Part shown: piece after piece, positions 13,833 to 36,791 of the stretch
Layout: each line of letters starts with the position of its first letter
Position numbering within the stretch: position 1 is the stretch's first letter
Origin: Bacteroidota bacterium
GTDB lineage: Bacteria; Bacteroidota; Bacteroidia; Bacteroidales; Prolixibacteraceae
Assembly (NCBI GenBank): GCA_023251435.1
Contig: JAHEYU010000062.1
Coordinates: 1 to 36,791, forward strand
Length of the DNA: 36,791 bases
Direction of reading: 5' to 3'
Notes under the pieces: model-generated
Told to the model about the DNA's origin: nothing
Seen by the model: only the letters and a program-made list of their open reading frames with translations
Databases searched by the model: none
Translations under genes and position numbers: made by a program

Positions 13833-13838
13833 AATTGT

Positions 13839-15374: not shown

Positions 15375-15562
15375 GTGTTTGCTTAAAAAACTTTGTCCCC
15401 GGCATCCATTGTTTCAAAAAAAAGTTGTACTTTTAGACTAGCCTTTAGTAGGTTACTGGGTTTAGGTTTTTGGTTCTGAGCATCATGTTTGAGTTGTGTG
15501 CATCGTTATTATTTCGTTGTTCATTCTCGTTTTCGTGAAGTTTGTAACTGATTTTCGGCCCC

Positions 15563-15607
15563 ATGGGAGTTTCATTCGAGTACATTTTTAACGACTGAAA
15601 CTCCCAT
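15563..15607. other. perfect 12-bp stem-loop just after the 885-residue eCIS gene
   Basis: ATGGGAGTTTCA at 15563-15574 pairs exactly with TGAAACTCCCAT at 15596-15607 around a 21-base loop. On the plus strand it is followed by T6, as in a terminator, but no plus-strand gene ends here. On the transcribed minus strand it lies 8 bases past the stop codon at 15616 and has no U tract. It may be an RNA stabiliser, a partial terminator or a processing site between the baseplate genes and the tape-measure genes. The rest of 15375-15562 holds no recognised gene. Confidence 0.6.
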
Positions 15608-15615
15608 CTTTTTTG

Positions 15616-18273: not shown

Positions 18274-18283
18274 AACCTGATAT

Positions 18284-20932: not shown

Positions 20933-20953
20933 GCTTCTGTTTTTTCTGAATGA

Positions 20954-24034: not shown

Positions 24035-24039
24035 AGCTT

Positions 24040-24453
24040 TTATGCTGTTTCAGTTCCTTCCGATTGATAGAAAGGAAACACCATGTTCTTTCTTGAATTT
24101 GTGACCCGTACCCGATAGTCGATGTTAATGAGCAGCAAGCCATAGTTGTCATCCGAAGGCTCAATCCGGATTTTATCCACATCAATTCTAGGTTCGTGAT
24201 ACAGAATAGCCGTCTTAATCAGGTCGGTAATGTATGTTTTCAGGGTCAGGTTCAGCGGTTTGAACAAAAGTTCTTCGAGGTTGCAACCGTAACCCGGAAC
24301 CATAATCCGCTCGCCCAAACGGGTGGACAACAAAATCTCAAGGCTTTTTTCAATGTCGGCCTCGCCTTCTGTCAGCAAAACGCTTGAGGTTGTTTTGCTA
24401 AATTCAGGAGGAAACCCCCATCCCCGGCCTAAAAATGAATCAGTTGCATCCAT
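24040..24453 (-). CDS. gp25-like baseplate wedge protein (Afp9/Pvc9-like)
   Basis: I choose the start at 24453 (MDATDSFLGRGWGFPPEF), giving 137 residues. The longer frame to 24486 would overlap the PAAR gene by 28 bases and adds an unlikely leader. The GPW/gp25 family is clear from GWGFPPEF, LTEGEADIEKSLEILLSTRL, GERIMVPGYGCNLEELLF and DLIKTAILYHEPRI. T4 gp25-type proteins nucleate the sheath at the baseplate. It sits between the PAAR tip gene (5-bp gap) and the Afp11-like gene (5-bp gap). The Afp order 9-10 is reversed here. Confidence 0.92.
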   Translation of the reverse strand: MDATDSFLGRGWGFPPEFSKTTSSVLLTEGEADIEKSLEILLSTRLGERIMVPGYGCNLEELLFKPLNLTLKTYITDLIKTAILYHEPRIDVDKIRIEPSDDNYGLLLINIDYRVRVTNSRKNMVFPFYQSEGTETA

Positions 24454-24458
24454 ACATT

Positions 24459-24752
24459 TTATCCTCCAATTAAAACAGTTGGGCATCCCAAAACAATTAT
24501 TCCTCCGTGCGCAGTGGAGTCACCAAGCCTTGCCGCCGGTTTACCGCCAATCATTACCGTTGCCGACCCTTTTGCAATCGTGTCGGGTGGACCAACGCAG
24601 GTGAGCATATCGCCAACACAAGCAGCCGGCATTCCGGCAATCAGCACAATTGGCGCTCCGGGCGGAAGGACAGACCCTCCAACATGTGGCACTGTTCCCG
24701 TTACCATCGGGCAAATGTGCATATCTCCTACTCTTGCGGCTGGCATTCCCAT
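24459..24752 (-). CDS. PAAR-repeat spike tip protein (Afp10/Pvc10-like)
   Basis: 97 residues, with three PAAR-type repeats: MPAARVGD near the start, MPAACVGD near 41-48 and KPAARLGD near 71-78. His and Cys residues around GDMHICP and MLTCVG can bind the structural zinc or iron of the cone. PAAR proteins cap the VgrG-like spike and sharpen it for membrane puncture, and sometimes carry toxins; here there is no extension, so it is a bare tip. It lies 5 bp before the gp25 start and 146 bp after the spike gene. Confidence 0.95.
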   Translation of the reverse strand: MGMPAARVGDMHICPMVTGTVPHVGGSVLPPGAPIVLIAGMPAACVGDMLTCVGPPDTIAKGSATVMIGGKPAARLGDSTAHGGIIVLGCPTVLIGG

Positions 24753-24757
24753 TTTGT

Positions 24758-24893
24758 TTATTTACGATTTTGATATTTACAATTTACCATTTTATTGTTG
24801 CGGGTTACGGGTTGTGAGATGCGGGTATTTCTGTCAACTGTGACTGACAACTGCGACTTTTTCCTCCACTCACCATGCTTCATGCCCCACGCT
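24758..24893. repeat. spacer made of four different degenerate short-repeat tracts
   Basis: Between the spike and PAAR genes, four tracts follow one another. They are an ATTTACxATT-like tract (about 24760-24795), a GCGGGTTACGGGTTG-like tract (24800-24826), a CAACTGTGAC / CAACTGCGAC direct repeat (24834-24857), and a CACCATGCTTCATGCCCCACG tract (24871-24891), each with its own unit of about 7-13 bases. No gene or clear hairpin was recognised. Confidence 0.55.
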
Positions 24894-24898
24894 CATCT

Positions 24899-26644
24899 TC
24901 AGTTTATCTGTACCAACGAGCCTTTCAGCTTTGCAACGGCGCTGGTTGAAATTTCTGCCCCGGCCGAGCCTTCGCCTTTAAACTGGGCCGAAGCCGATGC
25001 TGTAATATTCACTCCTTCAATCTTAATATCACCGGTTGCCTTTAGTGTAAGATCTTTCGCACTCTCAAGAACAATTCCTGATGAATCCATCACCATTTTG
25101 TTCCCGTTTTTATCTTCCACTTTTATTTCGCCTGCATCGTCGTCAATCAAAATTCGCTGTGAACCAGGCGTTTCAAGCAAAACCGATTTTTTATCGTCGT
25201 TAAAAATGAATTTTATCTTGCTCCGTGTAACAAAACCTTTTTCGTGATTATCGTCGGAAGCTTGCAATGGCGCCGGTTTCGCGCTGCTGTTCAGCATTCC
25301 AAGAACTACCGCGTCATTTGGATTATCGTTTATAAAACCAACAATCACTTCATCACCGATTTCAGGAAGGAAAAAAGTGCCGCGTTCGTTACCTGCATCG
25401 AGCGAAGCAATCCGCGCCCAAATTCCATCCGAAGTATTATCAATCAGCGGGCACCTGATTTTTATACGGTGCTCGTTATTCGGATCCGATTCCAACTGGG
25501 TTACAATCCCGATTTGCAGCCCATGAATCGCCGCAAATAATCCTGAAGCGGGCAGACTGGCAATATTAACACTCTCGGAAAACCAGGCAGGGTTTACTCC
25601 AAACTGGGCATCGGTTGTCCATTGTCCTTCAGTAATTTCGTGACGAATTGCTGAAATGTATATTTTACCATTGAACCGGTCGCCAACGCCCTGTAGCATT
25701 AAAGTTGTATTCGGTTTGCAGGCAGGGATTCCCTGGAATTTCAACCTTCCGCGAACTTTCGACAATTGGTTAAAAAGGGTCCGGGCATTTGCCCAATCCT
25801 GAATGGAGCCATCGGAAGTGGTTCCGCCATAAGTAAGTTTCAGGTTTTCAGTATCGATCACCGAAGCCAAATCGGAAGGGGTTAAGTTTCCGTTGAGGGC
25901 TACAGACGGATCGGCTGCCTCTGCTTCCGAAACTTCCTGCTTCGACTGATCCCACGCGTAAGAAGTAACTTTGCTGAACTGGTTTCTGGCGTCGATCTCG
26001 GCATCGAAGTCGAGCAAAGTGGAGCCAAAGACAACCGTTTGCAATTCAGACTGCGAAAAATCAGGTGCTTTAACAATGATTTTCCCATCATCAACAATGC
26101 AAATTTTTCCGTTGGCCTGCGCCCGTGTGACGATAAAATCCCAATCGGTACAATCGAACTGAACAAGTTCTTTGTGCTGCTGAGTGGTAGGACCGACATC
26201 ACTTTCAAGACCATAAGAGGCAATTATTTCGTCAATAATTTCGCTGTCTTTGCTGTCAGTAAAGTATTTACTTTTTCGTCCTGAAGTCAGTTTTAACGCT
26301 TTATCGCGGCACTCCACAACCAGAAGCGAATATTGCGGCCTGATTTTCAGGCTGTGTTTGATGATGACACCTTTGAAAATGGTTTCCTCGTCGGAATGAT
26401 ATCCTGCTTTGATTTCAATTTCTTTACCGGGAATCAGTGTACTTTCGTTGCTAACAGAAAATTCCTGACTGGCAGGGTCTCCATCGGTAATTACCAGTTT
26501 TGCCGAAGGCATCCGGTTGATCTCTTTTTCAACGCTGATGTTCAACACATTGACTGAAGCCGAAAGTTCGGTTCCGTCAATCAGCACCTTAAAAGTGACC
26601 AGATCGGCTGATCGTGAGGTTTGTATGTTCCGGGGAAATACCAT
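24899..26644 (-). CDS. VgrG-like central spike protein (Afp8/Pvc8-like)
   Basis: 581 residues. The gp27-like hub occupies about 15-355 (for example CRDKALKLTSGRKSKYF and FDCTDWDFIVTRAQANGK). An OB-fold gp5-like domain occupies about 373-452 (IGIVTQLESDPNNEHRIKI, DGIWARIASLDAGNERG, LPEIGDEVIVGFINDNP). The tail (about 470-581) is a repeating beta-strand needle (ILIDDDAGEIKVEDKNGNK, DLTLKATGDIKIEG). This is the Afp8/Pvc8 arrangement, the central needle pushed through the target membrane. No lysozyme or toxin extension is present. A 146-bp spacer separates it from its PAAR tip gene. Confidence 0.93.
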   Translation of the reverse strand: MVFPRNIQTSRSADLVTFKVLIDGTELSASVNVLNISVEKEINRMPSAKLVITDGDPASQEFSVSNESTLIPGKEIEIKAGYHSDEETIFKGVIIKHSLKIRPQYSLLVVECRDKALKLTSGRKSKYFTDSKDSEIIDEIIASYGLESDVGPTTQQHKELVQFDCTDWDFIVTRAQANGKICIVDDGKIIVKAPDFSQSELQTVVFGSTLLDFDAEIDARNQFSKVTSYAWDQSKQEVSEAEAADPSVALNGNLTPSDLASVIDTENLKLTYGGTTSDGSIQDWANARTLFNQLSKVRGRLKFQGIPACKPNTTLMLQGVGDRFNGKIYISAIRHEITEGQWTTDAQFGVNPAWFSESVNIASLPASGLFAAIHGLQIGIVTQLESDPNNEHRIKIRCPLIDNTSDGIWARIASLDAGNERGTFFLPEIGDEVIVGFINDNPNDAVVLGMLNSSAKPAPLQASDDNHEKGFVTRSKIKFIFNDDKKSVLLETPGSQRILIDDDAGEIKVEDKNGNKMVMDSSGIVLESAKDLTLKATGDIKIEGVNITASASAQFKGEGSAGAEISTSAVAKLKGSLVQIN

Positions 26645-26683
26645 CAGGATTTGTTTCGGTTATAAGTTATCTTGTTTTTACTT

Positions 26684-26738
26684 GTCATTTGATGGTCATT
26701 CGATTGTCATTTGTTGGTCATTTGTTGGTCATTTGCTG
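26684..26738. repeat. five tandem 11-bp units upstream of the spike gene
   Basis: GTCATTTGTTG-like units begin at 26684, 26695, 26706, 26717 and 26728. Two are identical and the others differ at one to three bases. The array fills much of the 144-bp spacer between the LysM baseplate gene and the spike gene. In the sense direction each unit contains AATGAC, an ATG overlapping a TGA. Confidence 0.85.
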
Positions 26739-26788
26739 TTTTTGCCAATTAATGACTATTAATGGCAACTAAGTGACCATTCTTTAAC

Positions 26789-27493
26789 TCAAGGAACTGA
26801 CTTCGCAATTCCCGCTTTCCCTATCGGCGGGAAGAAGATTTGTTGTCCGGGAGTCAGTTTCCTGAAATTGACCAGCTTATTTACTTTGGCAACTTCGAGG
26901 TAATATTTCGAATCGCCATAAATTCTGAAAGTCATTAACGGCAGCGTATCTCCCTCTTTTACAATGCGAACATGCGTTAGGTCGGGTGAATTGTTGTTTT
27001 CGCGGGCAATGCGTAAATCATCCTCAACAAATCCTTTAAAGGTTGCCCGGGCGCTTGCCCTTACCGGAGTTCCATCAGGTTTAAAAAGCTTAAACGTGAT
27101 TTCCATCTCGCTTAAACTGCCTTTAAACAACAGTGTGCCCCACGAAATTACCAGGTAATTAGGCTTGTGTTCTTCGCCGTTGTAATCGAATATTACCTTT
27201 TTAAACTTCTCGATATCATCAATAATTCCTTCACCCGAGGTATCTTCATATCCTTTAATCACTCCTGAACGGTCGAAAATAAAATCGAGCTGAAGGTCTT
27301 CGGGCAGTGCTTTGTTGAAACGCGGAGCGACCGCACTCGTTCCCTGTGCCTGTGTTTCGTCCTGCTCAATTCGATAATTAATTCGGTAGTTTTCAGGATT
27401 TAACAAGGTATTAAACTCTCCGTCGGCCACTTCCTGTGAAAACTTTTCATCGCGATATGCCTTTATTTTCAGCTTGGTTAATTCGCCGCTCAT
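26789..27493 (-). CDS. LysM-containing baseplate/tube-linker protein (Afp7/Pvc7-like)
   Basis: 234 residues. The N-terminal part (1-about 160) matches the CIS tube-like domain of Pvc7: LTKLKIKAYRD, NPENYRINYRIEQDETQAQG, then LDFIFDRSGVI and NYLVISWGTLLFKG. The C-terminal part (about 173-223) is a LysM: VRIVKEGDTLPLMTFRIYGD, then KLTPGQQIFFPP. In eCIS structures Pvc7/Afp7-type proteins join the tube initiator to the baseplate. It lies 11 bp after the DUF5908 gene. Length is normal for the family. Confidence 0.9.
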   Translation of the reverse strand: MSGELTKLKIKAYRDEKFSQEVADGEFNTLLNPENYRINYRIEQDETQAQGTSAVAPRFNKALPEDLQLDFIFDRSGVIKGYEDTSGEGIIDDIEKFKKVIFDYNGEEHKPNYLVISWGTLLFKGSLSEMEITFKLFKPDGTPVRASARATFKGFVEDDLRIARENNNSPDLTHVRIVKEGDTLPLMTFRIYGDSKYYLEVAKVNKLVNFRKLTPGQQIFFPPIGKAGIAKSVP

Positions 27494-27504
27494 AATCTTC
27501 AGTT

Positions 27505-27669
27505 TTACCGTTCGTGCGTTTTTGAAAGAATTTCGATCACCTGTTCAACGCATTGAGCCACCAGATCGCTTTGAGTTACTTTTCGACCCTGTTCAGTTTC
27601 ATCCGAAGCTTTTGCCTGGCCTTCAGAAACATTTATCCTGATATTCAACTCTTTAATCTCGATGGGCAT
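27505..27669 (-). CDS. DUF5908 small eCIS protein (Afp6/Pvc6-like position)
   Basis: A 54-residue gene beginning MPIEIKELNIRINV and ending EILSKTHER. The MPIEIKEL opening and the single C-terminal helix (LVAQCVEQVIEIL) are the marks of DUF5908, small proteins found beside tube genes in Bacteroidota contractile systems. It starts 1 bp after the second tube gene stops and ends 11 bp before the LysM baseplate gene. Its role is not established; the position corresponds to Afp6/Pvc6. Confidence 0.85.
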   Translation of the reverse strand: MPIEIKELNIRINVSEGQAKASDETEQGRKVTQSDLVAQCVEQVIEILSKTHER

Positions 27670-27670
27670 A

Positions 27671-28102
27671 CTAAAGGATTTTAAAATAATTGTAGCTCAG
27701 TTCAAGTGTTTCGATTACAATCTGGCTCTCTTCGGCATTGAAATCGGCCACTGCCCATTTTACCGGATAAGCGTGAATCACATTCCAGGTCATTAACGGC
27801 TCGTGCTCATCGTTCAGCAACTTGATGATGATGTCGGTGGGTGAATAACTGAAATCTTCGACCGACGACCGGCACCAGTCAATCAATGCTGAATCGGGGA
27901 GCAAGCCACGCTTAAGTACCAGATTCGGGTATCTTGGGCGCAACGGAAGTTTGTGAACAAAGCGGTTTTCTCCTCCTTCGGTAATATCTTCGGTTCCCAG
28001 ATTGTAACTCAATCCGGAGACCGATTGAAATTGATATTCATCAGGCTGATTTCCAAATTCAACCAGAAAATGAAATCCCAAAGGAGGATAATAACTACTC
28101 AT
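27671..28102 (-). CDS. second tail tube protein (Afp5/Pvc5-like tube initiator)
   Basis: 143 residues of the gp19/Hcp-like tube family (PF06841): LGFHFLVEFG, FQSVSGLSYNLG, NLVLKRGLLPDS, then LLNDEHEPLMTWNVIHAYPVKW and IETLELSYNYF. It differs clearly from the neighbouring tube protein while keeping the same length and block order. In Afp and PVC a divergent tube subunit forms the layer that meets the baseplate, and this is the natural assignment here. It is 2 bp downstream of the main tube gene. Confidence 0.9.
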   Translation of the reverse strand: MSSYYPPLGFHFLVEFGNQPDEYQFQSVSGLSYNLGTEDITEGGENRFVHKLPLRPRYPNLVLKRGLLPDSALIDWCRSSVEDFSYSPTDIIIKLLNDEHEPLMTWNVIHAYPVKWAVADFNAEESQIVIETLELSYNYFKIL

Positions 28103-28104
28103 TG

Positions 28105-28536
28105 TTATTCATTTTGAATGTATAATCCTTCGTGCACAATTTCCATTGATTCAATGGCGACTTCATTGCCATCGGCTTTTAAATCGGTTGACTGGATTTT
28201 GCTTGGCCAGGCATTTTTCACTTTCCAAACAACTACTGGTTCGTGTTCTTCATTCAGAAGCTTGATGGTGATATCGCGCCGTTCGATGGTATTTAATTTA
28301 ACCGTATTCCACCACTGATAAAATTCGTTGTCGCTCTGGAATGTGCCTCTTTTTAGGGTAATGTTGCTGAACTTCTGCATTCCAGGCATCTTTAATTTCG
28401 AATATTCGGGACTTGCCCCTTCGCGGTATTCTACCACTTCAGTTTCAACATCCAGCCCCGAAACCTCTGTGAATCCAATTTTAGTTCCACCCCAATCGAC
28501 CTGAAAATGAAACTTTACCAAAGGATAATTTGCCAT
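28105..28536 (-). CDS. main tail tube protein (Afp1/Pvc1-like)
   Basis: 143 residues. The tube signature is strong: VKFHFQVDWGG, GFTEVSGLDVETEVVEYREG, MPGMQKFSNITLKRG, then LLNEEHEPVVVWKVKNAWPSK and ESMEIVHEG. Members stack as hexameric rings to build the inner tube through which cargo travels. It follows the sheath gene by 27 bp, which keeps sheath and tube expression together. Of the two tube proteins this is the one closer to the bulk tube subunit consensus. Confidence 0.93.
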   Translation of the reverse strand: MANYPLVKFHFQVDWGGTKIGFTEVSGLDVETEVVEYREGASPEYSKLKMPGMQKFSNITLKRGTFQSDNEFYQWWNTVKLNTIERRDITIKLLNEEHEPVVVWKVKNAWPSKIQSTDLKADGNEVAIESMEIVHEGLYIQNE

Positions 28537-28563
28537 GATATATAATTTTTAGTTGTTAATTAT

Positions 28564-30519
28564 TTACGATTGCTGCAACTTGTGAGAGAATTTCAGGACA
28601 ATAAATTCAGCAGGACGAACCACTGCGAGGCCAATTTCGATGTGCATGTATCCGTTCAGGATATCATCGGCAGTCATGGTTTGACCAAGCCCCACACGAA
28701 CATAAAAAGCATCGTCGGGTTTTGCTCCGGCCAATGCTCCGGCGCGCCACTGAAGTATCAGGAAGTTCTCGATCATTGCCCTTACTTTTACCCAGGTATT
28801 GGCATCGTTGGGCTCGAAAACAAATTGCGCGGTTGCTTTTTTCACCGATTCTTCGACCATGTTGAAGAATCTGCGAACTGAAACATATCGCCATTCATTG
28901 TCGTTTCCGGCCAAAGTGCGGGCGCCCCAAACCAGGGTACCTTTTCCAGTAAACGAACGAATGGCATTAATTGATTTTCCTGAACCGGCATCCACATTCA
29001 AGCCATCCTGCATGTCGTTGGTAATTTTTACTGAAGGTTTGATGACGTAATTCAGTCCAACATTGGCAGGGGCTTTCCAAACACCACGGTCGCGGTCAAC
29101 ACGTGCATAAACTCCTGCAATGGCCGAACTTGGCGGCATTTTTACGTATAATTTTGCCAGTTGGGCTTTTATTTCGTTGAAAGTCTGGCTGTCTGATTTT
29201 TCGATGGCATTCAGTTTAAGGTTATCCAAATCGCCATTGGTATCGGCAGCACGGGCATCTTCAATCGCTTCAACAACTGGTGGATCAATTAATTCAGCGA
29301 TGTCCTCAATAACCGTTTCAAGGGTTGAAACAGTGGCAACAGCGGCCACCGCTTCGGTTTTTACTGCAGTTCCGTTTGCAGCAGCGGCAATTGCTGCGAT
29401 ATGTGCTTCCAGATTTGTTTTTATGGTTGCGATCGCTCCGCCCAATCCTGTGGTTAATGCAGTTGCGGCGGCAGTTGCGGCAGCGGCTACAGCAGGTGCT
29501 TCGCTTGCGGCAGTAGCAGCAAATGTTGCAGCGGCGGCAGCATCGGTTCCAGATGTTACAACCGAATCAATTAAATCGATAATTGGCTGAATGGCATCAG
29601 TAACCAGGTCTGACTGGGCAAGCGCTTCGGGAGCTGTTAAGCCGTTTATGACAGTCTGGGCATCTGTTAAAGCAGCAATTAAATCAGCACTTTCATCCAA
29701 AGCATTGATAATTTCATCCAAAGCATCGCTGGCATCTTCAAGCGTACTCAATAAAACGGGAGAATTATCGGTGGTATGTTTTAACGTTACTCCTGAAGTA
29801 CTGTAATTGTAATTCATCAGCGTTTCAACAAACGGATAATAGGCTGCTCCATATTTCAGGTAATCTTTTTCGAGGTTGACGCCATCACGCAAACCTTCGG
29901 AAGGTGTTGGATCATCACTTTCATCATCAGAATAAGTATCAAGTATGGTAAACCTATCCTGAAGCTTGTTGCATTGTGTGAGTGCATCCTTGTAAATTGC
30001 ATAGAAATTATCAGATGTTAATGCTGTGGCATCCGGAAACAGGAGTAAAGTAGGCTCGTCTTCTTTTTCCACCTGTGCCAGTCCATCCTGCAGATCATCA
30101 AGCTGAACCGGATTAGTAGCATTTGCTGTGGTTGCAGCTGCATAAGTACTCACTGACGTAATGTAACATGGACCTCCTCCATTTGCAAAATACAAACGCA
30201 ATGCATAATACATTAGGAAAGGAGATTTTGTAGCAGGTTGCGGAGCTGTAATTGAGCGGGTTACCACACCGTTAACAGTTACATCATTAATTTTAACTTC
30301 GATTCCGGTTTCGGGTGCGGCACCACCAAAATGAGTTTCGTAATCTAACAGCGATGTAATTCTGAAAGGAACAAGAATGAGGTCTCCGGTTTCCTTTTTG
30401 ATCGCTTTCTCAGTATAACCAATAAAGGCTGGGATCGCAGTTTCGACCTGTGCTACCGATGGCGGGAATTTTGCAATTTCCTCGATGTAAACACCGGGTG
30501 TTTTGTACGTTGTTGCCAT
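28564..30519 (-). CDS. contractile tail sheath protein with large Ala-rich insertion (Afp2/Pvc2-like)
   Basis: 651 residues. The N-terminus TYKTPGVYIEEIAKFPPSV with PAFIGYTEKA, and the C-terminal half (about 463-651: SSAIAGVYARVDRDRGVWKA, RRFFNMVEESVKKAT, FEPNDANTWVKVRAMIENFL, VRPAEFIVLKFSHKL in blocks), are classic sheath sequence. Between them, residues about 255-455 form an Ala-rich helical stretch (dense A/T runs at 325-400) that most sheaths lack or have in shorter form. It should lie on the outer surface. Only one sheath gene is present, unlike the several of Afp/PVC. It is the second gene of the operon. Confidence 0.93.
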   Translation of the reverse strand: MATTYKTPGVYIEEIAKFPPSVAQVETAIPAFIGYTEKAIKKETGDLILVPFRITSLLDYETHFGGAAPETGIEVKINDVTVNGVVTRSITAPQPATKSPFLMYYALRLYFANGGGPCYITSVSTYAAATTANATNPVQLDDLQDGLAQVEKEDEPTLLLFPDATALTSDNFYAIYKDALTQCNKLQDRFTILDTYSDDESDDPTPSEGLRDGVNLEKDYLKYGAAYYPFVETLMNYNYSTSGVTLKHTTDNSPVLLSTLEDASDALDEIINALDESADLIAALTDAQTVINGLTAPEALAQSDLVTDAIQPIIDLIDSVVTSGTDAAAAATFAATAASEAPAVAAAATAAATALTTGLGGAIATIKTNLEAHIAAIAAAANGTAVKTEAVAAVATVSTLETVIEDIAELIDPPVVEAIEDARAADTNGDLDNLKLNAIEKSDSQTFNEIKAQLAKLYVKMPPSSAIAGVYARVDRDRGVWKAPANVGLNYVIKPSVKITNDMQDGLNVDAGSGKSINAIRSFTGKGTLVWGARTLAGNDNEWRYVSVRRFFNMVEESVKKATAQFVFEPNDANTWVKVRAMIENFLILQWRAGALAGAKPDDAFYVRVGLGQTMTADDILNGYMHIEIGLAVVRPAEFIVLKFSHKLQQS

Positions 30520-30629
30520 AGTGTTCCGTTTTAAGATTTATAATTTTATATGCATTTAATCAGACATCTGGGATACTCTGCTTGATTTAAGTTATGTATG
30601 CCACCTTGCCGGTTTTATAAAGTTACACG

Positions 30630-31220
30630 TTATTGATGTTTAACGACATCCGTAATTTCCGTAATAACTTTTGCTGTTCCTATAAGTTCTTTGCGGTCGA
30701 TTTCAACAAGCTGAATCTTGTAAATCACTGAGGGTAACTGTCTTCCGCCCAATGTTCCCCATACATAGTTTAGTTCTTCGAAAGTGGGAGTGTACAATTC
30801 TATAATAAGCTTAAAGTGTTCGAGTACATCAAAATCTTCTTTGGTTTCAAAAATTGTATTTTCTGAAGTGAAGATTTTTTTCCCCTGAAAAAACTCAATG
30901 GTTTTTGAGATGCTACGCAAAGAATTGGTGTAAGTATTGCAGTTTCCGCTAATTAGCAAAAACAGATTCAGATGGACTGGTGGATTTCGATACTCAGTAG
31001 TAGTCTTATCAATGACTTTGTAATTAGGAAGATTCTTGAGGGTCGCTTCTTCTTCAAGATTCAACAGTGTCAATACAACCTTATTGGTCAGTTTTTCCGT
31101 ATTTTCGGAGGAAGTTTCGAACAAGGCAATATTTTCGATTGTAACCAGATTTGATAAACCTGCTGTTGTCAGATAATTATCGAGTTGCTGGCTAATAATT
31201 TGAATGGCTTCATAGATCAT
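30630..31220 (-). CDS. eCIS terminal cap protein (Afp16/Pvc16-like, DUF4255)
   Basis: 196 residues. The DUF4255 opening MIYEAIQIISQQLDNYL, with VVLTLLNLEEEATLKN, the RNPPVHLNLFLLI strand and SISKTIEFFQGKKIFTSEN, is diagnostic. Afp16/Pvc16 caps the distal end of tube and sheath and sets particle length together with the tape measure. It is the first gene of the operon, in contrast with Afp/PVC where the cap gene is last. The 110-bp gap to the sheath gene could hold a second promoter, but I could not place one. Confidence 0.88.
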   Translation of the reverse strand: MIYEAIQIISQQLDNYLTTAGLSNLVTIENIALFETSSENTEKLTNKVVLTLLNLEEEATLKNLPNYKVIDKTTTEYRNPPVHLNLFLLISGNCNTYTNSLRSISKTIEFFQGKKIFTSENTIFETKEDFDVLEHFKLIIELYTPTFEELNYVWGTLGGRQLPSVIYKIQLVEIDRKELIGTAKVITEITDVVKHQ

Positions 31221-31561
31221 GGCAATTGATTTATTTGGTGCTTATTAAAATAAATTACCAACAAACATTTACCCTTTTTCGATCTGGTATAGCTTTGAAT
31301 AAGAATTACCACTTAAATAATAAATTTATCGGCAATCATTATCCTGATGATGGTTAGGCTGCATCCGGGGGAGGATAAATAGAAACTAAATCCCTGCAGT
31401 TAATCTTTCGTGAGTTTGGATTTATTTTCTCCGGATTTGATAATCAAATTTACAACAATCAGTTACCAAAGACAATAGTTGATGTAATGATTTTGTTTTT
31501 AATAATTAATTCAGAAATTTGAGCAAAGGTTACCCTATCTTGTCAAGAATATTTTCAATAA

Positions 31562-31586
31562 AATAGATTAGCCCATTTAATCTATT
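31562..31586. promoter_or_regulatory. palindromic candidate operator upstream of the methyltransferase operon
   Basis: AATAGATTA (31562-31570) and TAATCTATT (31578-31586) form a perfect 9-bp inverted repeat with a 7-base spacer. It lies about 80 bases upstream of the promoter of the plus-strand operon, in the 497-bp divergent region shared with the eCIS operon. No U tract follows, so a terminator is unlikely. A second, 15-base palindrome, ATTTGATAATCAAAT, is at 31435-31449. The rest of 31221-31666 is AT-rich with no gene recognised. An operator role is inference. Confidence 0.4.
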
Positions 31587-31666
31587 GTGATACAATCATG
31601 TACAGAAAGAAAAAAAAATACATATTCCGGGACTTATCTGGAATCATATTAAATTATCTATATATA

Positions 31667-31697
31667 TTGATTTGATATATTTTTAACTTTATCTTTG
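31667..31697 (+). promoter_or_regulatory. Bacteroidota-type promoter of the methyltransferase operon
   Basis: TTG at 31667-31669 and TATCTTTG at 31690-31697 match the -33 TTG and -7 TAnnTTTG elements used by Bacteroidota primary sigma factors, with a 20-base spacer. Transcription should begin near 31703, giving a leader of about 15 bases before the ATG at 31718. Confidence 0.75.
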
Positions 31698-31717
31698 CAC
31701 CTCAAAATTGAAATTTC

Positions 31718-32359
31718 ATGGATACAATCGAAATTGCCGGAAGATACTCTGCATTGGCCAACGACACTTGTTGCTTGTCGTGCGGAGGAGCAGCCGAAAA
31801 AAGCGAAGCAAAAACCGGGGAGGTTTGTATTGATTTGGGAAGTGGCCGTGGAACAGATGTTTTGCGCCTTGCCGAAGAAGTTGGCGAAGGTGGTTTTGTT
31901 TATGGAATTGATGTTACCGAGGAAATGATCCGAAAAGCCACATCGACAGCTGCAAAAATGGGTGTCGAAAATGTGAAATTTATTCAGGCCGATTTGGAGC
32001 AGATTCCTTTGGAAGATGAAATTGCCAACCTGATTATTTCAAATTGCACCCTGAACCATGTTTCAAACAAAGTAAAAGTTTGGGCCGAAATTTACCGCTT
32101 GCTGAAGAACGGTGGTCGGTTTGTAATTAGCGATATATATTCAAGTGAGCCTGTTCCTGAAGAATATGCCAATGACCCGGAAGCAGTAGCCGAATGTTGG
32201 GCAGGTTCGATTACCAAAGCCGAATATCTCGCGATCATTAAAAATGCCGGATTTAAAGATTTCACGATTATGGAAGAAAGCCAGCCTTATCCGAAAGGCA
32301 AAATTGAAGTGTCGAGTTTTACCATTACAGCGAAGAAAGACGAATTTAGTTGCTGTTGA
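31718..32359 (+). CDS. ArsM-like SAM-dependent methyltransferase with Cys pairs at both ends
   Basis: 213 residues. The Rossmann methyltransferase core is clear: VCIDLGSGRGTDVLRLA (36-52) binds SAM, VYGIDVTEEMI (61-71) is motif II, and LIISNCTLNHVSNK with EIYRLLKNGGRFVISDI follows. Cys110 in SNC and Cys160 in AECWAGS stand where arsenite methyltransferases carry their two conserved arsenic-binding cysteines. Extra thiols are CCLSCGG at 18-24 and the final CC at 212-213. Bacterial ArsM proteins are usually about 260-290 residues or longer, so this one is short at the C-terminus. The substrate could be arsenite, another soft metalloid, or a protein or peptide thiol. It is first in an operon with a radical SAM enzyme and a thioredoxin system. 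Confidence 0.82.
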   Translation: MDTIEIAGRYSALANDTCCLSCGGAAEKSEAKTGEVCIDLGSGRGTDVLRLAEEVGEGGFVYGIDVTEEMIRKATSTAAKMGVENVKFIQADLEQIPLEDEIANLIISNCTLNHVSNKVKVWAEIYRLLKNGGRFVISDIYSSEPVPEEYANDPEAVAECWAGSITKAEYLAIIKNAGFKDFTIMEESQPYPKGKIEVSSFTITAKKDEFSCC

Positions 32360-32361
32360 AA

Positions 32362-32520
32362 CAAGTTTCAAGTTCCAAGTCAAGTTCGCCCTGTAATTTC
32401 AGGGTGTTTAGCACCAGAGGTGCGAAATATTTGTTGAATAGATAAAGAAAAGATGGTTGCCGTCCGCGATATAAGTTTGATCAACGCAAAAACTTCCTTT
32501 CGGACGGAAAGAGGTTGCCT
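32362..32520. repeat. structured intergenic element, likely dispersed repeat
   Basis: The region opens with a CAAGTT-rich tract (32362-32386). Three inverted repeats follow: CCCTG/CAGGG (32389-32393 with 32400-32404), GCACC-AGA-GGTGC (32411-32423) and CCGTCCG/CGGACGG (32460-32466 with 32501-32507). The stretch GGTGCGAAATATTTGTTGAA resembles intergenic sequences I recall as recurring in many Bacteroidota genomes; that is memory, not a search. No protein is apparent. It may also act as the transcript end of the methyltransferase gene. Confidence 0.5.
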
Positions 32521-32614
32521 AAATAATTGAAAAGTCTGAGAGTATTTATATTGAACTTTGGTTCATTTAACCTACTTTTATTCTCTATAGTTTAATCAAT
32601 GCAAAATTCTCGAA

Positions 32615-32710
32615 ATGAAAAGTTTAGTAAAAAAAGCCCGCAAGGGACAGATTAAACAGGCGCAATGCTGTGCCAAACAATCACAGATTATTGCCGGATG
32701 CCACGATTAA
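32615..32710 (+). CDS. 31-residue Cys-containing ORF, candidate peptide precursor
   Basis: A short ORF starts at an ATG at 32615 and stops at TAA 32708-32710. It begins with a very basic segment (MKSLVKKARKGQIKQ), continues with QCCAKQ (Cys18, Cys19) and ends AGCHD (Cys29). It lies between an ArsM-like methyltransferase and a radical SAM/SPASM enzyme, where RiPP precursors are often found. The basic leader-like half and Cys-bearing core-like half fit that role, but there is no homology evidence. It could be a chance frame; the last codons overlap a CCACGATTAA direct repeat. Confidence 0.35.
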   Translation: MKSLVKKARKGQIKQAQCCAKQSQIIAGCHD

Positions 32711-32727
32711 GGCGTCCACGATTAATG

Positions 32728-32804
32728 ATTAACGATTGATGATTAACGATTAAAGAAGTATTCTAAAGTCTGCAATCTAAAATCGTTAATCGTTGATCGT
32801 TAAT
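32728..32804. repeat. 24-bp inverted repeat just upstream of the radical SAM gene
   Basis: The arms 32728-32751 and 32781-32804 match at 21 of 24 positions and are built from an ATTAACGATT-like unit; the mismatches are mostly G-U wobble in RNA. A 29-base loop separates them. The right arm ends 17 bases before the ATG at 32822, so the hairpin could affect termination, attenuation or translation of the radical SAM gene. A short T run (32815-32819) follows. Confidence 0.6.
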
Positions 32805-32821
32805 TTTAAATTAGTTTTTCC

Positions 32822-34123
32822 ATGCAACTCTCCAAATACAACATTACTTCAAAAATTAAAGACTCCGATAATTGGTTCCTAGTGAATTCATTGTCGGGTC
32901 AGGCTGATATTCTTGATCATGCCACTTTCGAACAATTACACAATATTGACGAAACAAATCAGGAATTAATCGAAAATGGTTATATCGTTGATCCGGTTCA
33001 GGAAAAACGATTGTTTCGTGAAAAATACCTGAAATTTCTGGATGACCGCGAAAAGGACGAGGTTCAAATCTTTTTCGTGACCAACTATTCGTGCAATTTC
33101 GATTGTTCGTATTGTTATCAGGCCGGTTACGAGGCTTTGCCGGTTGCCTTGTCGAAAGAAGTTACCGACTCGTTTTTTGAATATATCCAGAAAGAGTTTT
33201 CGGGAAGGCGAAAATACATCACCCTTTTTGGTGGCGAACCTTTTATGAATGCGCCACGCCACAAGGAAAATATCGAGTATATTATTGAAAGGGCAACCGC
33301 CTTGAATCTCGAAATTGCCGCGGTTACCAACGGATACAATCTGGAAGAATATATTCCCATTTTAAAGAAGGGTATCATTCGCGAAATTCAGGTGACTATT
33401 GACGGAACCAGCGAAATACACAACCAGCGTCGTTACCTGAAAGGCGGTAACCCGACTTTCGATCGTATTGTTCGTGGAGTTGACCTTTTAATCGAAAACA
33501 ATATCCCGGTCAATTTGCGCATGGTAGTTGACAAACAAAATATTGAAAATCTGCCTGATTTGGCTCAATTTGCCATCGATAAAGGATGGACAGCTTCTCC
33601 ACTTTTTAAAACTCAATTGGGTCGGAATTACGAACTCCACGAATGTCAGGCCAATCAGCAAAAGCTTTATTCGCGCCTCGAATTGTATCAGGATTTATAC
33701 AATCTGCTGAATCAGTTTCCACACATCAGCGAATTCCATAAACCTGCATTTTCTGTCGCGAAATTCTTGTTCGAACAGGGCGAAATGCCTGCACCTCTTT
33801 TTGATGCCTGCACCGGAACTAAAACCGAATGGGCCTTCGATTTTACCGGGAACGTTTATGCCTGCACGGCAACAGTTGGGAAACAGGGAGAAAGTCTCGG
33901 TACTTTTTATCCTGAAGTCAGGAAAAATACCGATACTGTTGAGGAATGGCAGGAACGTGATATTTTGTCAATTCCGAAATGCCAAAGCTGTAACATGAGT
34001 TTGATTTGCGGCGGCGGTTGCGCATCGATGGCCAAAAACTACAATGGAACACTGAACAGCCACGATTGCCGCCCGGTAACTGAATTGCTGGAACTTGGAA
34101 TTGGACATTATTTCAACGAATAA
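32822..34123 (+). CDS. radical SAM/SPASM enzyme, peptide-maturase-like
   Basis: 433 residues. The radical SAM cluster motif is CNFDCSYC (Cys91, 95, 98), followed by GGEP at 137-140 and an IQVTIDGTSEIHNQRR strand. A SPASM-type C-terminus has Cys330, 348, 387, 390, 396, 400 and 416 (CQSCNMSLICGGGC is the core), enough for two auxiliary Fe-S clusters. The first ~80 residues (SKYNITSKIKDSDNWFLVNS, then SGQADILDH) resemble the N-terminal domain of peptide-modifying SPASM enzymes. It lacks the sequence layout of the arsenosugar enzyme ArsS. Likely action is radical modification of a peptide or protein side chain; the target is unknown. It lies 3 bp upstream of the DUF1847 gene. Confidence 0.88.
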   Translation: MQLSKYNITSKIKDSDNWFLVNSLSGQADILDHATFEQLHNIDETNQELIENGYIVDPVQEKRLFREKYLKFLDDREKDEVQIFFVTNYSCNFDCSYCYQAGYEALPVALSKEVTDSFFEYIQKEFSGRRKYITLFGGEPFMNAPRHKENIEYIIERATALNLEIAAVTNGYNLEEYIPILKKGIIREIQVTIDGTSEIHNQRRYLKGGNPTFDRIVRGVDLLIENNIPVNLRMVVDKQNIENLPDLAQFAIDKGWTASPLFKTQLGRNYELHECQANQQKLYSRLELYQDLYNLLNQFPHISEFHKPAFSVAKFLFEQGEMPAPLFDACTGTKTEWAFDFTGNVYACTATVGKQGESLGTFYPEVRKNTDTVEEWQERDILSIPKCQSCNMSLICGGGCASMAKNYNGTLNSHDCRPVTELLELGIGHYFNE

Positions 34124-34126
34124 ACG

Positions 34127-34693
34127 ATGGACTGCACCAATTGCACCTACGATAAACAATGCCGTAAAACGGAACCCTGTAAAGCAACTTCGTTTGATCG
34201 CGATGAGGTGATTTCAAAATATGCCGAAGAATCAGAAATTGTTCAAGCTGCAGCTGAATTGGTCGATTTTGGTCGTGCCGGAACATTGTCGAGACTTCAG
34301 GAAACCATCGCTTTTGCCAAGAAAATGGAATACAAGCGAATCGGCCTGGCCTACTGCTACGGAATGGAAAAGCAAGTCAAACAAATTACTGAAATTATCC
34401 GAAGCAATGGATTGAATGTACGACCTGTGTCGTGCACCGTTGGAGGCCTTCCGCAGAATGAAGTAAATCCGGAAAGTTCGATATGCAACGTTTCCTGCAA
34501 CCCAATTGGGCAGGCGCATCAATTGAATCACGAGAATGTTGATTTGGTGGTGATGATCGGACTTTGTATGGGGCACGACATTTTGTTTCAGCGCGAAGTG
34601 AAAGCCGATTGCACCACGCTGGTTGTGAAAGACCGCATTTATAATCACGCACCTTTAAATGAATTAAAAACATACACCCATGAGAGAAATTAA
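34127..34693 (+). CDS. DUF1847 Cys-rich metal-binding-like protein
   Basis: 188 residues, ten Cys or more. The N-terminus MDCTNCTYDKQCRKTEPC has Cys3, 6, 12 and 18, a metal-binding cluster pattern. Further cysteines are Cys77 (AYCYG), 103 (VSCTVGG), 120 and 124 (ICNVSCNP), 147 (GLCMGHD) and 162. This set and the GLCMGHD block are typical of DUF1847, a family of anaerobe proteins with unknown function. The core may bind an Fe-S cluster or zinc and may act in thiol transfer. It starts 3 bp after the radical SAM gene and its end overlaps the next gene by 14 bases, so the three are tightly coupled. Confidence 0.85.
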   Translation: MDCTNCTYDKQCRKTEPCKATSFDRDEVISKYAEESEIVQAAAELVDFGRAGTLSRLQETIAFAKKMEYKRIGLAYCYGMEKQVKQITEIIRSNGLNVRPVSCTVGGLPQNEVNPESSICNVSCNPIGQAHQLNHENVDLVVMIGLCMGHDILFQREVKADCTTLVVKDRIYNHAPLNELKTYTHERN

Positions 34694-35948
34694 TGCATCA
34701 GATTTTGAAAAAGAAGTATTAAACGGAGGAAATGTTCTGGTTGATTTTTATTCGACCGAATGTGCTCCATGCGAGGCTATTGCACCAAAACTGGAAGGTC
34801 TTGAAAAGCTTTTTGGAAAAGAAATCAAATTTGTGAAGATTTTTCGTCAGGGAAACCGCGAACTATCGGATAAGTTAATTGTAAAAAGCTCGCCAACACT
34901 TCTGTTTTATCAGGATGGGGAAGAAGTTTCAGGTCGTTTGGCAGGTGGTGTTAAACGCTCCGAAATTGTTCGCGAGCTGAAACATATTCTCGGTAAAGAA
35001 AAAGTAACTGATATAATGGCTACGCAACAACCTTTTGTAACCAATGTTGATGTGGCTATTTTGGGTGCTGGTCCGGGCGGATTGACTGCCGGATTGTACC
35101 TGTGTCAGGCAAAAATAAATACTGTTTTAATCGACATTGCGCTTCCTGGCGGGTACGTTTCAACCACCCACATGGTATCGAACTATCCCGGTTTTATTGA
35201 CCCGCAGCCCGGTTATCTGCTTGGGCACAACATGTCGGAACAAACCAAACAATGCGGAACAACCTATAAAGTGGCGGTTGACGTAACCAAAGTCGATCTT
35301 CTGAAAAAGGAGATTACCATTGACAACCAGGAAACCATCCGAGCCAAACGAATCATTGTTGCCACCGGAACTTCCCCCAACAAAATGGGCATTCCCGGAG
35401 AAGTTGAATACCGGGGCAAAGGAATTTCGTATTGCGCTACCTGCGATGCCAAATATTTTGGCGACAAGGAAGTGATTGTTGTTGGCGGCGGAAATTCGGC
35501 CATCGAAGAAGCTGATTTTATTTCGAAGTTTGCTTCCAAAATCACCATCATACACCAGTTCGACCAACTTCAGGCGAATAAAACCGCGCAGGAAAAAGCT
35601 TTTGCCAATCCAAAAATTTCGTTCCTGTTATCCCACGAACCACGTGCCATTAAAAAAGACGGAGATAAAATGGTGGTTGAGGTGGAGGATCTGAAAACTA
35701 ACGAGATGAAAACAATCACAGCCGACGGTATTTTTGTTTTCATCGGGTTAAAACCCAATCTCGAAATATTCAACAATCAATTTGAACTCGATGAGTGGGG
35801 CTACATCAAAACCGATGAAGATAAGCGAACCAACATTGATGGCGTGTTTGCAGTGGGAGATGTGACCAGTAAAAAATACAGGCAGATTACCACAGCCATT
35901 GCAGATGGAACCATTGCGGCCATTTCAATCACCCGTGAAATCGGATAA
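34680..35948 (+). CDS. thioredoxin-thioredoxin reductase fusion
   Basis: 422 residues. Residues 1-~108 are a thioredoxin fold with active site ECAPCEA (Cys28, Cys31) and the cis-Pro block SSPTLLFY. Residues ~122-422 are a low-molecular-weight thioredoxin reductase: FAD motif GAGPGG (129-134), redox CATC (Cys252, Cys255), NADPH motif GGGNSA (269-274) and the FAD-closing AVGDVTSKKYRQ. NADPH electrons should pass to CATC, then to the fused CAPC and on to a partner in the operon. ArsM-type methyltransferases are known to use thioredoxin as reductant, which fits the first gene. The start overlaps the DUF1847 end by 14 bases, implying translational coupling. Confidence 0.92.
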   Translation: MREINASDFEKEVLNGGNVLVDFYSTECAPCEAIAPKLEGLEKLFGKEIKFVKIFRQGNRELSDKLIVKSSPTLLFYQDGEEVSGRLAGGVKRSEIVRELKHILGKEKVTDIMATQQPFVTNVDVAILGAGPGGLTAGLYLCQAKINTVLIDIALPGGYVSTTHMVSNYPGFIDPQPGYLLGHNMSEQTKQCGTTYKVAVDVTKVDLLKKEITIDNQETIRAKRIIVATGTSPNKMGIPGEVEYRGKGISYCATCDAKYFGDKEVIVVGGGNSAIEEADFISKFASKITIIHQFDQLQANKTAQEKAFANPKISFLLSHEPRAIKKDGDKMVVEVEDLKTNEMKTITADGIFVFIGLKPNLEIFNNQFELDEWGYIKTDEDKRTNIDGVFAVGDVTSKKYRQITTAIADGTIAAISITREIG

Positions 35949-35981
35949 ATTAGAACTATTAAGGGGTTAATATAAATTCGG

Positions 35982-36033
35982 AAATTCCGGTATTCATTTT
36001 CCTGAAAAGGGGAGTTACGCCGGAATTTTTTTT
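35982..36033 (+). terminator. stem-loop and T-tract terminator after the reductase gene
   Basis: AAATTCCGG at 35982-35990 pairs with CCGGAATTT at 36020-36028 and is followed by further Ts to 36033. It lies 34 bases after the stop of the thioredoxin reductase fusion. The loop is long (29 bases), but the stem plus T-run fits a Rho-independent terminator for the plus-strand operon. Confidence 0.65.
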
Positions 36034-36036
36034 GAG

Positions 36037-36072
36037 AGTGAGGGTCTGACTTCAAGTCAGGCTCTCACTTTT
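36037..36072 (+). terminator. second stem-loop between convergent genes
   Basis: AGTGAGGGTCTGACT (36037-36051) pairs with AGTCAGGCTCTCACT (36055-36069), with two positions forming wobble pairs and a 3-base loop; TTTT ends at 36072. It overlaps the stop codon of the potassium channel gene. It may serve as a back-up terminator for the plus strand. On the minus strand it is followed by an A-run, not a T-run. Confidence 0.65.
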
Positions 36073-36791
36073 CAATTAAACTGGTAATTTTCTCCCCGCA
36101 CTGATTGCAAAATTGTGCATTTTCAGGATTTTCGCTGTTGCAGTTTTTGCATTTCCGATTGGTAGATTTGCTTTTTGACAGCTCAACGGTGATAATTCCG
36201 GTTGGGACAGCAATAATAGCATACCCGATAATCATCGAAATGGATGAAAGGAATTTCCCTAAAACGGTTTGGGGCACAATGTCGCCAAAACCCACAGTTG
36301 TAACCGTAACAATTGCCCAATAGATACTTTGCGGGATACTTGTAAATCCATTTTCACTTCCTTCAACAACATACATCATAGTACCCAATAAGGTCACCAT
36401 TGAAATAACTGCCAAAAGGAAAACTCCAATTTTATATGAACTTCCTTTCAACGCTTCGAGAAGCACTCTTGCTTCTTTGTTGAACCTGACGAGTTTTAAT
36501 ATTCTGAAAACCCTTAGCAATCTTAATATCCTGACAGTCAGAAGATAATGATAACCAGGAACCATAAGATCAATATAAGTCGGAAGTATTGCTAAAATAT
36601 CGACAAGACCCCAGAAGCTGAAAATGTATTTCAAGGGTTTTGGCGAACTCCAAATCCGGAGCAAATATTCGATTGAAAAAAGAATAGTAAAAGTCCATTC
36701 ACTCAGGTAGAACTCTGAAAAGAAGTTGGTATGATATTGTGGAATACTTTCAATAATTACAACTGCAACGCTTAGTAAGATAAGCCATAAC
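36065..36791 (-). CDS. voltage-gated K+ channel with C-terminal zinc ribbon (N-terminus cut)
   Basis: The frame runs open to the window end, so 241 codons are visible and the N-terminus is missing; TTG at 36664 is internal, not a start. Segments read: part of S1 (LWLILLSVAVVIIES), S2 near FTILFSIEYLLRIW, S3 (GLVDILAILPTYI), a charged S4 (RILRLLRVFRILKLVRF), S5, the pore helix and filter TTVGFGD, and S6 (IIGYAIIAVPTGIITVEL). It ends with CKNCNSENPENAQFCNQCG, a four-Cys zinc ribbon in the cytoplasm. The protein should be an inner-membrane tetramer passing K+. It is convergent with the thioredoxin reductase fusion and unrelated to it in strand. Confidence 0.92.
   Translation of the reverse strand, partial: LWLILLSVAVVIIESIPQYHTNFFSEFYLSEWTFTILFSIEYLLRIWSSPKPLKYIFSFWGLVDILAILPTYIDLMVPGYHYLLTVRILRLLRVFRILKLVRFNKEARVLLEALKGSSYKIGVFLLAVISMVTLLGTMMYVVEGSENGFTSIPQSIYWAIVTVTTVGFGDIVPQTVLGKFLSSISMIIGYAIIAVPTGIITVELSKSKSTNRKCKNCNSENPENAQFCNQCGEKITSLIEK

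Follow-up and report, generated by a model that had tools for sequence, protein, structure and literature searches.

A conserved cysteine peptide gene beside an ArsM-like methyltransferase and a radical SAM/SPASM enzyme suggests a putative RiPP pathway in Bacteroidota and other phyla

Introduction

Two described systems of ribosomally synthesized and post-translationally modified peptides (RiPPs), both matured by radical S-adenosylmethionine (SAM)/SPASM enzymes, are close to the one considered here. SCIFF peptides are spread among Clostridia (PMC8326336), and PapB, the maturase of freyrasin, acts on substrates with the motif CX3D/E (PMC9413430). With regard to arsenic, residues C72, C174, and C224 of the methyltransferase CmArsM bind As(III) and are required for its methylation (PMC3877260), and arsenic methylation by human AS3MT is raised by thioredoxin, thioredoxin reductase, and NADPH (PMC12608789). 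Here, a locus that resembles each of these systems in part was analyzed. It lies in a window, meaning the whole stretch of DNA studied, of 36,791 nt from a bacterium of the Prolixibacteraceae, phylum Bacteroidota (assembly GCA_023251435.1, contig JAHEYU010000062.1, positions 1 to 36,791). The locus comprises genes for an ArsM-like methyltransferase, a small cysteine peptide, a radical SAM/SPASM enzyme, a DUF1847 protein, and a thioredoxin-thioredoxin reductase (Trx-TrxR) fusion (Table 1). Judged from sequence comparison and a structure model, they probably constitute a conserved, "housekeeping"-type RiPP pathway that has not previously been described.

A first-pass annotation, made from the letters alone, had placed four open reading frames (ORFs) on one strand. 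All four were recovered at the same places, and the coupling of the last three genes by a 3-nt gap and a 14-nt overlap was exact. The family assignments (ArsM-like, radical SAM/SPASM, DUF1847, and thioredoxin plus thioredoxin reductase) agree with the Pfam and NCBIfam matches. The 462-nt stretch between the ArsM-like and radical SAM genes contains a fifth, the peptide ORF, which the first-pass annotation had missed.

Table 1. Features of the locus and their positions in the window.
Feature	Coordinates	Strand	Basis
ArsM-like SAM-dependent methyltransferase, 213 aa, short form	31718-32359	+	ORF call, profile matches, alignments
Gene for a putative 31-aa precursor peptide with the C-terminal core AQCCAKQSQIIAGCHD	32615-32710	+	Conserved ORF, codon-level selection
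Radical SAM/SPASM peptide maturase (predicted), N-terminal RRE-like domain, 433 aa	32822-34123	+	Profile matches, alignments, structure model
DUF1847 protein, 188 aa, facultative accessory	34127-34693	+	Pfam match, alignment, model
Trx-TrxR fusion, 422 aa	34680-35948	+	Profile matches; both active sites kept
-7 promoter element TATCTTTG, Bacteroidota type TAnnTTTG	31690-31697	+	Consensus, upstream regions of relatives
Operator-like imperfect dyad upstream of promoter (inference)	31642-31672	.	Aligned upstream regions

Results

The Peptide Gene

The loci used for comparison were obtained in one contig search with short patterns of the radical SAM protein of the window. It returned 65 loci in named genomes of Bacteroidota, Spirochaetes, and one Myxococcota; remote members are under-sampled in this set. 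In 59 of the 65, the radical SAM gene is preceded on its own strand by a homologous ORF, at a distance of 9 to 630 nt from the match. The six loci without it are all missing the 5' portion of the gene: five (L061-L065) start inside it, and in the sixth (L020) residue 96 is preceded by unrelated DNA. The L020 gene, which is without residues 1-95, reflects either decay or misassembly; genome G401, mentioned below, is taken to be the same genome.

In the window, the peptide ORF is separated from the ArsM-like gene by 255 nt and from the radical SAM gene by 111 nt. Across the homologues the peptide has 30-37 residues (50 in one) and begins with M-[KRT]-[ST]-[LV], a Lys-rich start of the basic MKS[LV]xKK type. 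The C-terminal core follows the pattern A-Q-C-C-A-K-x-S-x-x-x-x-G-C-H-D. Among 68 distinct peptides, pooled over all sources, A1, Q2, C3, C4, A5, K6, G13, C14, H15, and D16 are invariant, position 8 is Ser in 67, and the stop codon directly follows D16. Exactly three Cys are present in 47 of these peptides and more than three in 21. The 16-codon core occurs in 54 different DNA forms in the window and the 59 loci, which include near-identical relatives, and among these forms all the invariant residues vary synonymously. Moreover, synonymous divergence (pS) of the core was 0.21-1.20 in 16 comparisons of the window with a relative, versus 0-0.18 for nonsynonymous divergence (pN). This codon pattern indicates purifying selection on the core. 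The window peptide was matched by no Pfam or NCBIfam model at E 0.01.

The arrangement around the peptide varies in some loci. The peptide ORF overlaps the ArsM-like gene by 4 nt in L059, the locus from Myxococcota. On contig 66 of genome G486 (L109), the radical SAM gene is preceded by an additional peptide copy whose core reads AQCCAKTAKTVAGCHD, with Ala in place of Ser8; there the normal copy follows the ArsM-like gene approximately 5 kb upstream, and between the two lies a gene that by eye resembles a different, non-ArsM methyltransferase. The spacer between the peptide and radical SAM genes of the window holds, at 32718-32811, AT-rich imperfect inverted repeats with arms of 22-40 nt that are 73-78% complementary, together with a 14-nt direct repeat; some relatives carry other sequence at this point.

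The Radical SAM/SPASM Enzyme

The enzyme contains CxxxCxxC at C91/C95/C98 and further Cys at C330, C348, C387, C390, C396, C400, and C416, in the order of the SPASM motif with its seven auxiliary-cluster Cys. All ten are invariant in 31 of 31 and in 48 of 48 aligned sequences. The 48-sequence alignments used in this study comprise the window and those 47 of the 65 loci in which all ORFs have full length, with L028, L029, and L059 left out. These three are included in the 31-sequence radical SAM alignment, and L028 and L059 also in the 24-sequence ArsM-like alignment.

It can be observed that the structure model combines RRE, radical SAM, and SPASM parts, with strands at 7-11, 18-22, and 27-31 followed by helices, and that it aligns with CteB from residue 4 onward in a full-length structural match. 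An RRE-like domain thus appears at the N-terminus of the model, and its recognition of a leader is predicted only. The closest structures were two CteB entries (Z of 27.4 and 26.4), and anSME gave 25.8. The first-pass annotation had left it to be seen whether the protein falls in a known family; its score is under the cut-off of each of the best 25 NCBIfam models. Scores against cut-offs, in bits, were 159.7/600 for CefB (NF038107), 133.9/525 for TIGR04463, 119.6/600 for Clo7bot (TIGR04334), 117.7/340 for PapB (NF047865), and 92.6/425 for the SCIFF maturase (TIGR03974). The PapB model was matched by all 31 radical SAM orthologues scanned. Homologues in 24 viral loci (19-33% identity) and 5 plasmid records (26-29% identity) were not taken as orthologues.

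Co-Occurrence of the Genes

A lack of joint conservation in other genomes had been named in the first-pass annotation as grounds for refuting it; the genes proved to be co-conserved, DUF1847 excepted. The ArsM-like gene stands ahead of the radical SAM gene in 53 of the 55 loci whose upstream sequence extends over 1000 nt or more; in the two exceptions (L023 and L030) the contigs begin 1697 and 1224 nt upstream. Among 395 genomes of the window's phylum, the radical SAM gene was present in 6, the window's own included. The other five all have the ArsM-like gene, the peptide, and Trx-TrxR, the last seen only partly in three and located ahead of the ArsM-like gene in two.

The 140 genomes of the window's family were searched with E limits of 1e-60 for the radical SAM gene, 1e-55 for the ArsM-like gene, and 0.01 for the peptide, which were found in 43, 45, and 44 genomes, respectively. 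All three occur in 42 genomes, none in 94, and a partial set in 4. It should be noted that these genomes are not phylogenetically independent, the radical SAM gene being present in 5 of 23 genera. Within the window's genus it was found in 22 of 23 genomes. In 20 regions around family members, the peptide precedes the radical SAM gene in 17; in the remaining three, it is found next to the ArsM-like gene at another place in the genome, with approximately 70 nt between them. Regions L125 and L126 resemble the contigs of L019 and L018, respectively. As these two genes stay adjacent where the radical SAM gene stands apart, they are the tightest pair of the set. Furthermore, protein distances of the ArsM-like enzyme, the radical SAM enzyme, and Trx-TrxR correlate over the window and 47 loci (Spearman 0.76-0.85), as would fit a gene set that has travelled together.

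The ArsM-Like Methyltransferase

The methyltransferase scored 194.8 bits with the PRK11873 model (NF008823; cut-off 263) and 86.8 bits with that of the DVU_1556 family (NF045667; cut-off 155), and matches to the ArsM models of the arsinothricin/arsenosugar pathways were weak (105.4/500 and 71.1/400 bits). C18, C19, C22, C37, C110, and C160 are invariant in 24 of 24 and 48 of 48 sequences. C22, C110, and C160 align with C72, C174, and C224 of CmArsM, so that the first-pass annotation was right in seeing the arsenic-binding Cys positions retained. The family is 37-42% identical to the canonical ArsM of genomes that carry the system, and a tree with 14 ArsM-like and 5 canonical sequences separates the two.

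The genome of the window encodes its own canonical ArsM (354.5 bits) and the arsenite exporter Acr3 elsewhere. Within the window's family, canonical ArsM was not associated with the system (24 of 42 carriers vs 51 of 94 non-carriers, Fisher p 0.85), nor was Acr3 (38 of 42 vs 80 of 94). No ars gene was found among the flanking clusters that recur in at least 4 of the 65 loci. In single loci, an ArsR-type gene lies approximately 1.7 kb upstream of the ArsM-like gene with minus-strand ORFs between (L028), and a DUF302 gene follows Trx-TrxR (L034). Since neither ArsM nor Acr3 is associated, no ars neighbour recurs, and the downstream genes described below are of a sulfur type, a metalloid (As, Sb, or Se) is kept as a tentative, somewhat doubtful candidate for the physiological ligand.

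Trx-TrxR and DUF1847

Trx-TrxR is encoded downstream of the radical SAM gene in all 65 loci; the active-site pairs are C28/C31 and C252/C255. DUF1847, by contrast to its treatment as a constant member in the first-pass annotation, was found in 33 of the 65 loci and not found in 32, and is therefore demoted from core to accessory. The window protein matches PF08901 with 132.5 bits (gathering cut-off 25), and its model is Rossmann-like. Two forms can be distinguished: one has additional Cys at the N-terminus and is encoded close to the radical SAM gene or directly behind Trx-TrxR, and the other is shorter and located downstream. C77, C103, C124, and C147 are invariant in 30 sequences. An accessory role suits DUF1847 best, and it may be a thiol or metal protein; no paper on it was found in the open-access literature search.

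In Paludibacter-type loci (L039, L042, L048, and L056), genes for a rhodanese, a disulfide reductase with rhodanese domains, thioredoxins, and an FAD oxidoreductase resembling SQR were observed 3' of Trx-TrxR. Pfam was run on L039 and L048, and similar ORFs occur in more loci. These genes point to sulfur rather than arsenic metabolism.

Regulatory Elements and Neighbouring Genes

TAnnTTTG, the Bacteroidota-type -7 consensus, is not above chance in the window alone (25 found, 34.9 expected). Within 100 nt 5' of the ArsM-like gene, it was present in 35 of 52 loci vs 6.2% of random 100-nt windows. The promoter element seen by the first-pass annotation is thus backed by relatives, but it is not the single one visible: a second TAnnTTTG at 32472-32479, 143 nt ahead of the peptide, is a candidate internal promoter in the window. 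Just upstream of the promoter, an operator-like dyad is seen in the genus: a block of type AACATATCAAATAATCTAnATATGTT appears in most of 16 aligned rows (the window and 15 loci) and is more strongly conserved than the sequence around it. In 8 of the 16 rows no better inverted repeat was found; the window copy is less symmetrical, and no second copy of the window dyad was found in its own genome at 0-3 mismatches. For the terminator that had been called, the candidate at 35978-35990 is at chance level, with 5 terminator-like sites in 31200-36200 vs 5.8 expected. Rfam gave no match in 30500-36791.

Beyond core and thiol-redox genes, the clusters recurring in at least 4 of the 65 loci are injection-system genes, CreD, IS1595, GDSL, enolase-like, aminotransferase, and ion-channel genes, and three clusters without a Pfam match. 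In the window, an extracellular contractile injection system occupies 12198-31220 on the minus strand (eCIS core, tape measure, Baseplate_J, gp25, baseplate V, two gp19 tube proteins, sheath, and Pvc16). Pvc16-type genes lie upstream of the operon in 10 of the 65 loci and sheath genes in 9, and the neighbourhood is therefore conserved among relatives. A voltage-gated-type ion-channel protein with a C-terminal zinc ribbon, encoded at 36065-36790 on the minus strand, is found near the operon in 5 loci by sequence likeness. A gene with an IS1595-type transposase zinc ribbon lies beside the ArsM-like gene in 15 of the 65 loci, on the minus strand, 1.5-2.2 kb 5' of the radical SAM gene. Genes for the inner-membrane protein CreD and a 212-aa protein without a Pfam match follow Trx-TrxR in 13 of the 65, 2.4-5.5 kb downstream of the radical SAM start. 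In L108, L109, L110, and L115, the radical SAM and Trx-TrxR genes stand near genes that by eye resemble those of NifX/dinitrogenase-cofactor proteins; nearby are also, in L108 and L110, an MBL-fold-like gene, likewise judged by eye, and in L109 and L115 DUF1847.

Discussion

The peptide is very probably the substrate of the radical SAM enzyme. In the pathway proposed here, the enzyme would bind the N-terminal leader of the peptide via its RRE domain and link one of the three core Cys to a nearby side chain in a ranthipeptide-type thioether, for which Ser8, His15, and Asp16 of the core, all well conserved, are possible acceptors. The balance leans towards such thioether chemistry. The ArsM-like enzyme might then methylate the sulfur of one of the other Cys, or a soft metalloid bound to thiols of the peptide and the enzyme; that it acts on the peptide or on something the peptide carries is rather likely. 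Electrons passing from NADPH to TrxR and Trx would keep the Cys of the peptide and the methyltransferase reduced and turn the methyltransferase over. The product would not leave the cell, where it would serve as a cofactor based on thiols or as a ligand of soft metal(loid)s. An internal role is preferred to that of a bacteriocin because the core is near-frozen over three phyla, the radical SAM gene is present in 22 of 23 genomes of the genus, and no recognizable exporter, protease, or immunity gene is among the recurrent flanking clusters; an argument of the same type has been based on how widely SCIFF peptides occur (PMC8326336).

Several observations weigh against this proposal. The case is built on sequence and a model. 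The peptide has neither the CX3D/E motifs of PapB substrates nor the six Cys of SCIFF, and the crosslink is a guess. CteB exceeds anSME in Z by only 0.6-1.6, and anSME is not known to make thioethers. Genome G401 has a truncated radical SAM gene without the ArsM-like gene or the peptide, and the ArsM-like gene occurs without the radical SAM gene in G480 and G488, where the peptide is present, and alone in G484. A single transcript can only be presumed, the spacers in the window being 255 and 111 nt long and a second -7-like site lying ahead of the peptide. Furthermore, no protease/peptidase or exporter could be recognized among the flanking clusters recurring in at least 4 of the 65 loci, nor could an immunity gene; genes for leader removal or export could be encoded elsewhere.

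Of the two readings offered by the first-pass annotation, the RiPP-like one has gained good support from a conserved peptide that resembles a precursor, a CteB-like maturase with an RRE, and co-occurrence that is close to perfect. The other, metalloid detoxification, would make the peptide a three-thiol chelator or carrier that hands As(III) or Sb(III) to the ArsM-like enzyme in a resistance pathway, with Trx-TrxR regenerating the chelator and the radical SAM step tuning it. The invariant Cys triad, which matches the As(III)-binding residues described in PMC3877260, the effect of Trx, TrxR, and NADPH on human AS3MT reported in PMC12608789, and the ArsR-type and DUF302 genes of L028 and L034 speak for it. 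Nevertheless, it is unlikely: canonical ArsM and Acr3 are equally common with and without the system, the window genome has both elsewhere, no ars gene recurs in the flanks, and the family is divergent from canonical ArsM and apart from it in the tree. Rather improbable, too, is a metalloid-bearing RiPP, in which As(III) (or Sb/Se) would be held by the three peptide Cys, methylated there by the ArsM-like enzyme, and fixed through a carbon-sulfur or even a carbon-arsenic bond by the radical SAM/SPASM enzyme. If true, such a product would be without precedent as an organometalloid cofactor or carrier of ribosomal origin, and its own Trx-TrxR would recycle it.

A secreted product of the ordinary ranthipeptide type, bacteriocin or signal, would agree with the nearest families, CefB, TIGR04463, Clo7bot, and PapB, all of which are RiPP maturases. 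The almost invariant core across Bacteroidota, Spirochaetes, and Myxococcota, the presence of the radical SAM gene in nearly every genome of the genus, and the lack of a recurrent recognizable exporter, peptidase, or immunity gene make it quite improbable. It is very improbable that the radical SAM enzyme matures a protein partner (Trx-TrxR, the ArsM-like enzyme, or DUF1847) in the manner of QhpD or anSME, with the peptide as regulator or adaptor. Here, the structural closeness of anSME, nearly that of CteB, and the constant presence of Trx-TrxR are set against an RRE-like N-terminus that aligns with that of CteB, the absence of DUF1847 from the calls in about half of the loci, and a peptide whose basic conserved leader, tiny Cys core, and fixed C-terminus are as in other RRE-bearing radical SAM RiPP systems (PMC8326336). 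Finally, the long spacers of the window and terminator-like sites at chance level would suit a chance neighbourhood of unrelated genes with a spurious small ORF; in our view this is refuted by co-conservation and selection, and its probability is negligible.

Returning to the RiPP pathway, none of the window maturase, peptide, and methyltransferase reaches the cut-off of any NCBIfam model listed here. In the open-access literature, no description of an ArsM-like/radical SAM/peptide system was found among the matches listed, as judged from titles and abstract openings, and the terms arsenite, thioredoxin, and Prolixibacter are absent from the main text of a Bacteroidales RiPP survey (PMC10352776). 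On these grounds, the cluster is called a putative RiPP family, new within the radical SAM/SPASM, RRE-bearing class. The peptide supplies the probable missing substrate of the cluster and so renders the pathway testable, and the system would join the few in which a peptide is conserved in the manner of a cofactor pathway, not of a weapon. Action of the methyltransferase on peptide sulfur would show reuse of the arsenic-binding fold; action on a peptide-held metalloid would open a new kind of metalloid chemistry. The uncharacterized family DUF1847 also gains a genomic context.

Comparison with Known Systems

Radical SAM chemistry is paired with an ArsM-type methylase in the arsinothricin and arsenosugar pathways. 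These are not known to have a SPASM peptide maturase or a peptide, and the window methyltransferase is far under the cut-offs of their ArsM models. We know of no described RiPP pathway with an ArsM-type methyltransferase and a dedicated Trx-TrxR. With canonical ArsM (PRK11873/CmArsM) the window enzyme shares the methyltransferase fold and the three As-binding Cys. It differs in its shortness (213 aa, beginning shortly before the first Cys of the triad), in the extra invariant C18, C19, and C37, in the pairing of its gene with a peptide gene, in its separate place in the tree, and in a score under the cut-off. The DVU_1556 family is likewise an ArsM-related methyltransferase family of similar length (213 model positions), with the window score under its cut-off.

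Among the maturases, CefB ("Cys-every-fifth"), TIGR04463, and Clo7bot are the top-scoring NCBIfam models and align over most of the protein, but their cut-offs are far above its scores, and the Cys of the window peptide are not spaced at every fifth residue. PapB/PapA of freyrasin resembles the system as a radical SAM/SPASM ranthipeptide maturase; the window enzyme is under its cut-off, and the conserved peptide core is without CX3D/E. SCIFF peptides carry six Cys in about forty-five residues, whereas the window peptide has three core Cys in 31 aa; the window maturase reaches 92.6 of the 425 bits set for TIGR03974, its partners are an ArsM-like methyltransferase and Trx-TrxR, and its system is recorded here in Bacteroidota, Spirochaetes, and Myxococcota, whereas SCIFF is spread among Clostridia. 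With CteA-CteB it nevertheless has in common an enzyme built of RRE, radical SAM, and SPASM parts, a small Cys peptide encoded beside the maturase, and a housekeeping-like conservation.

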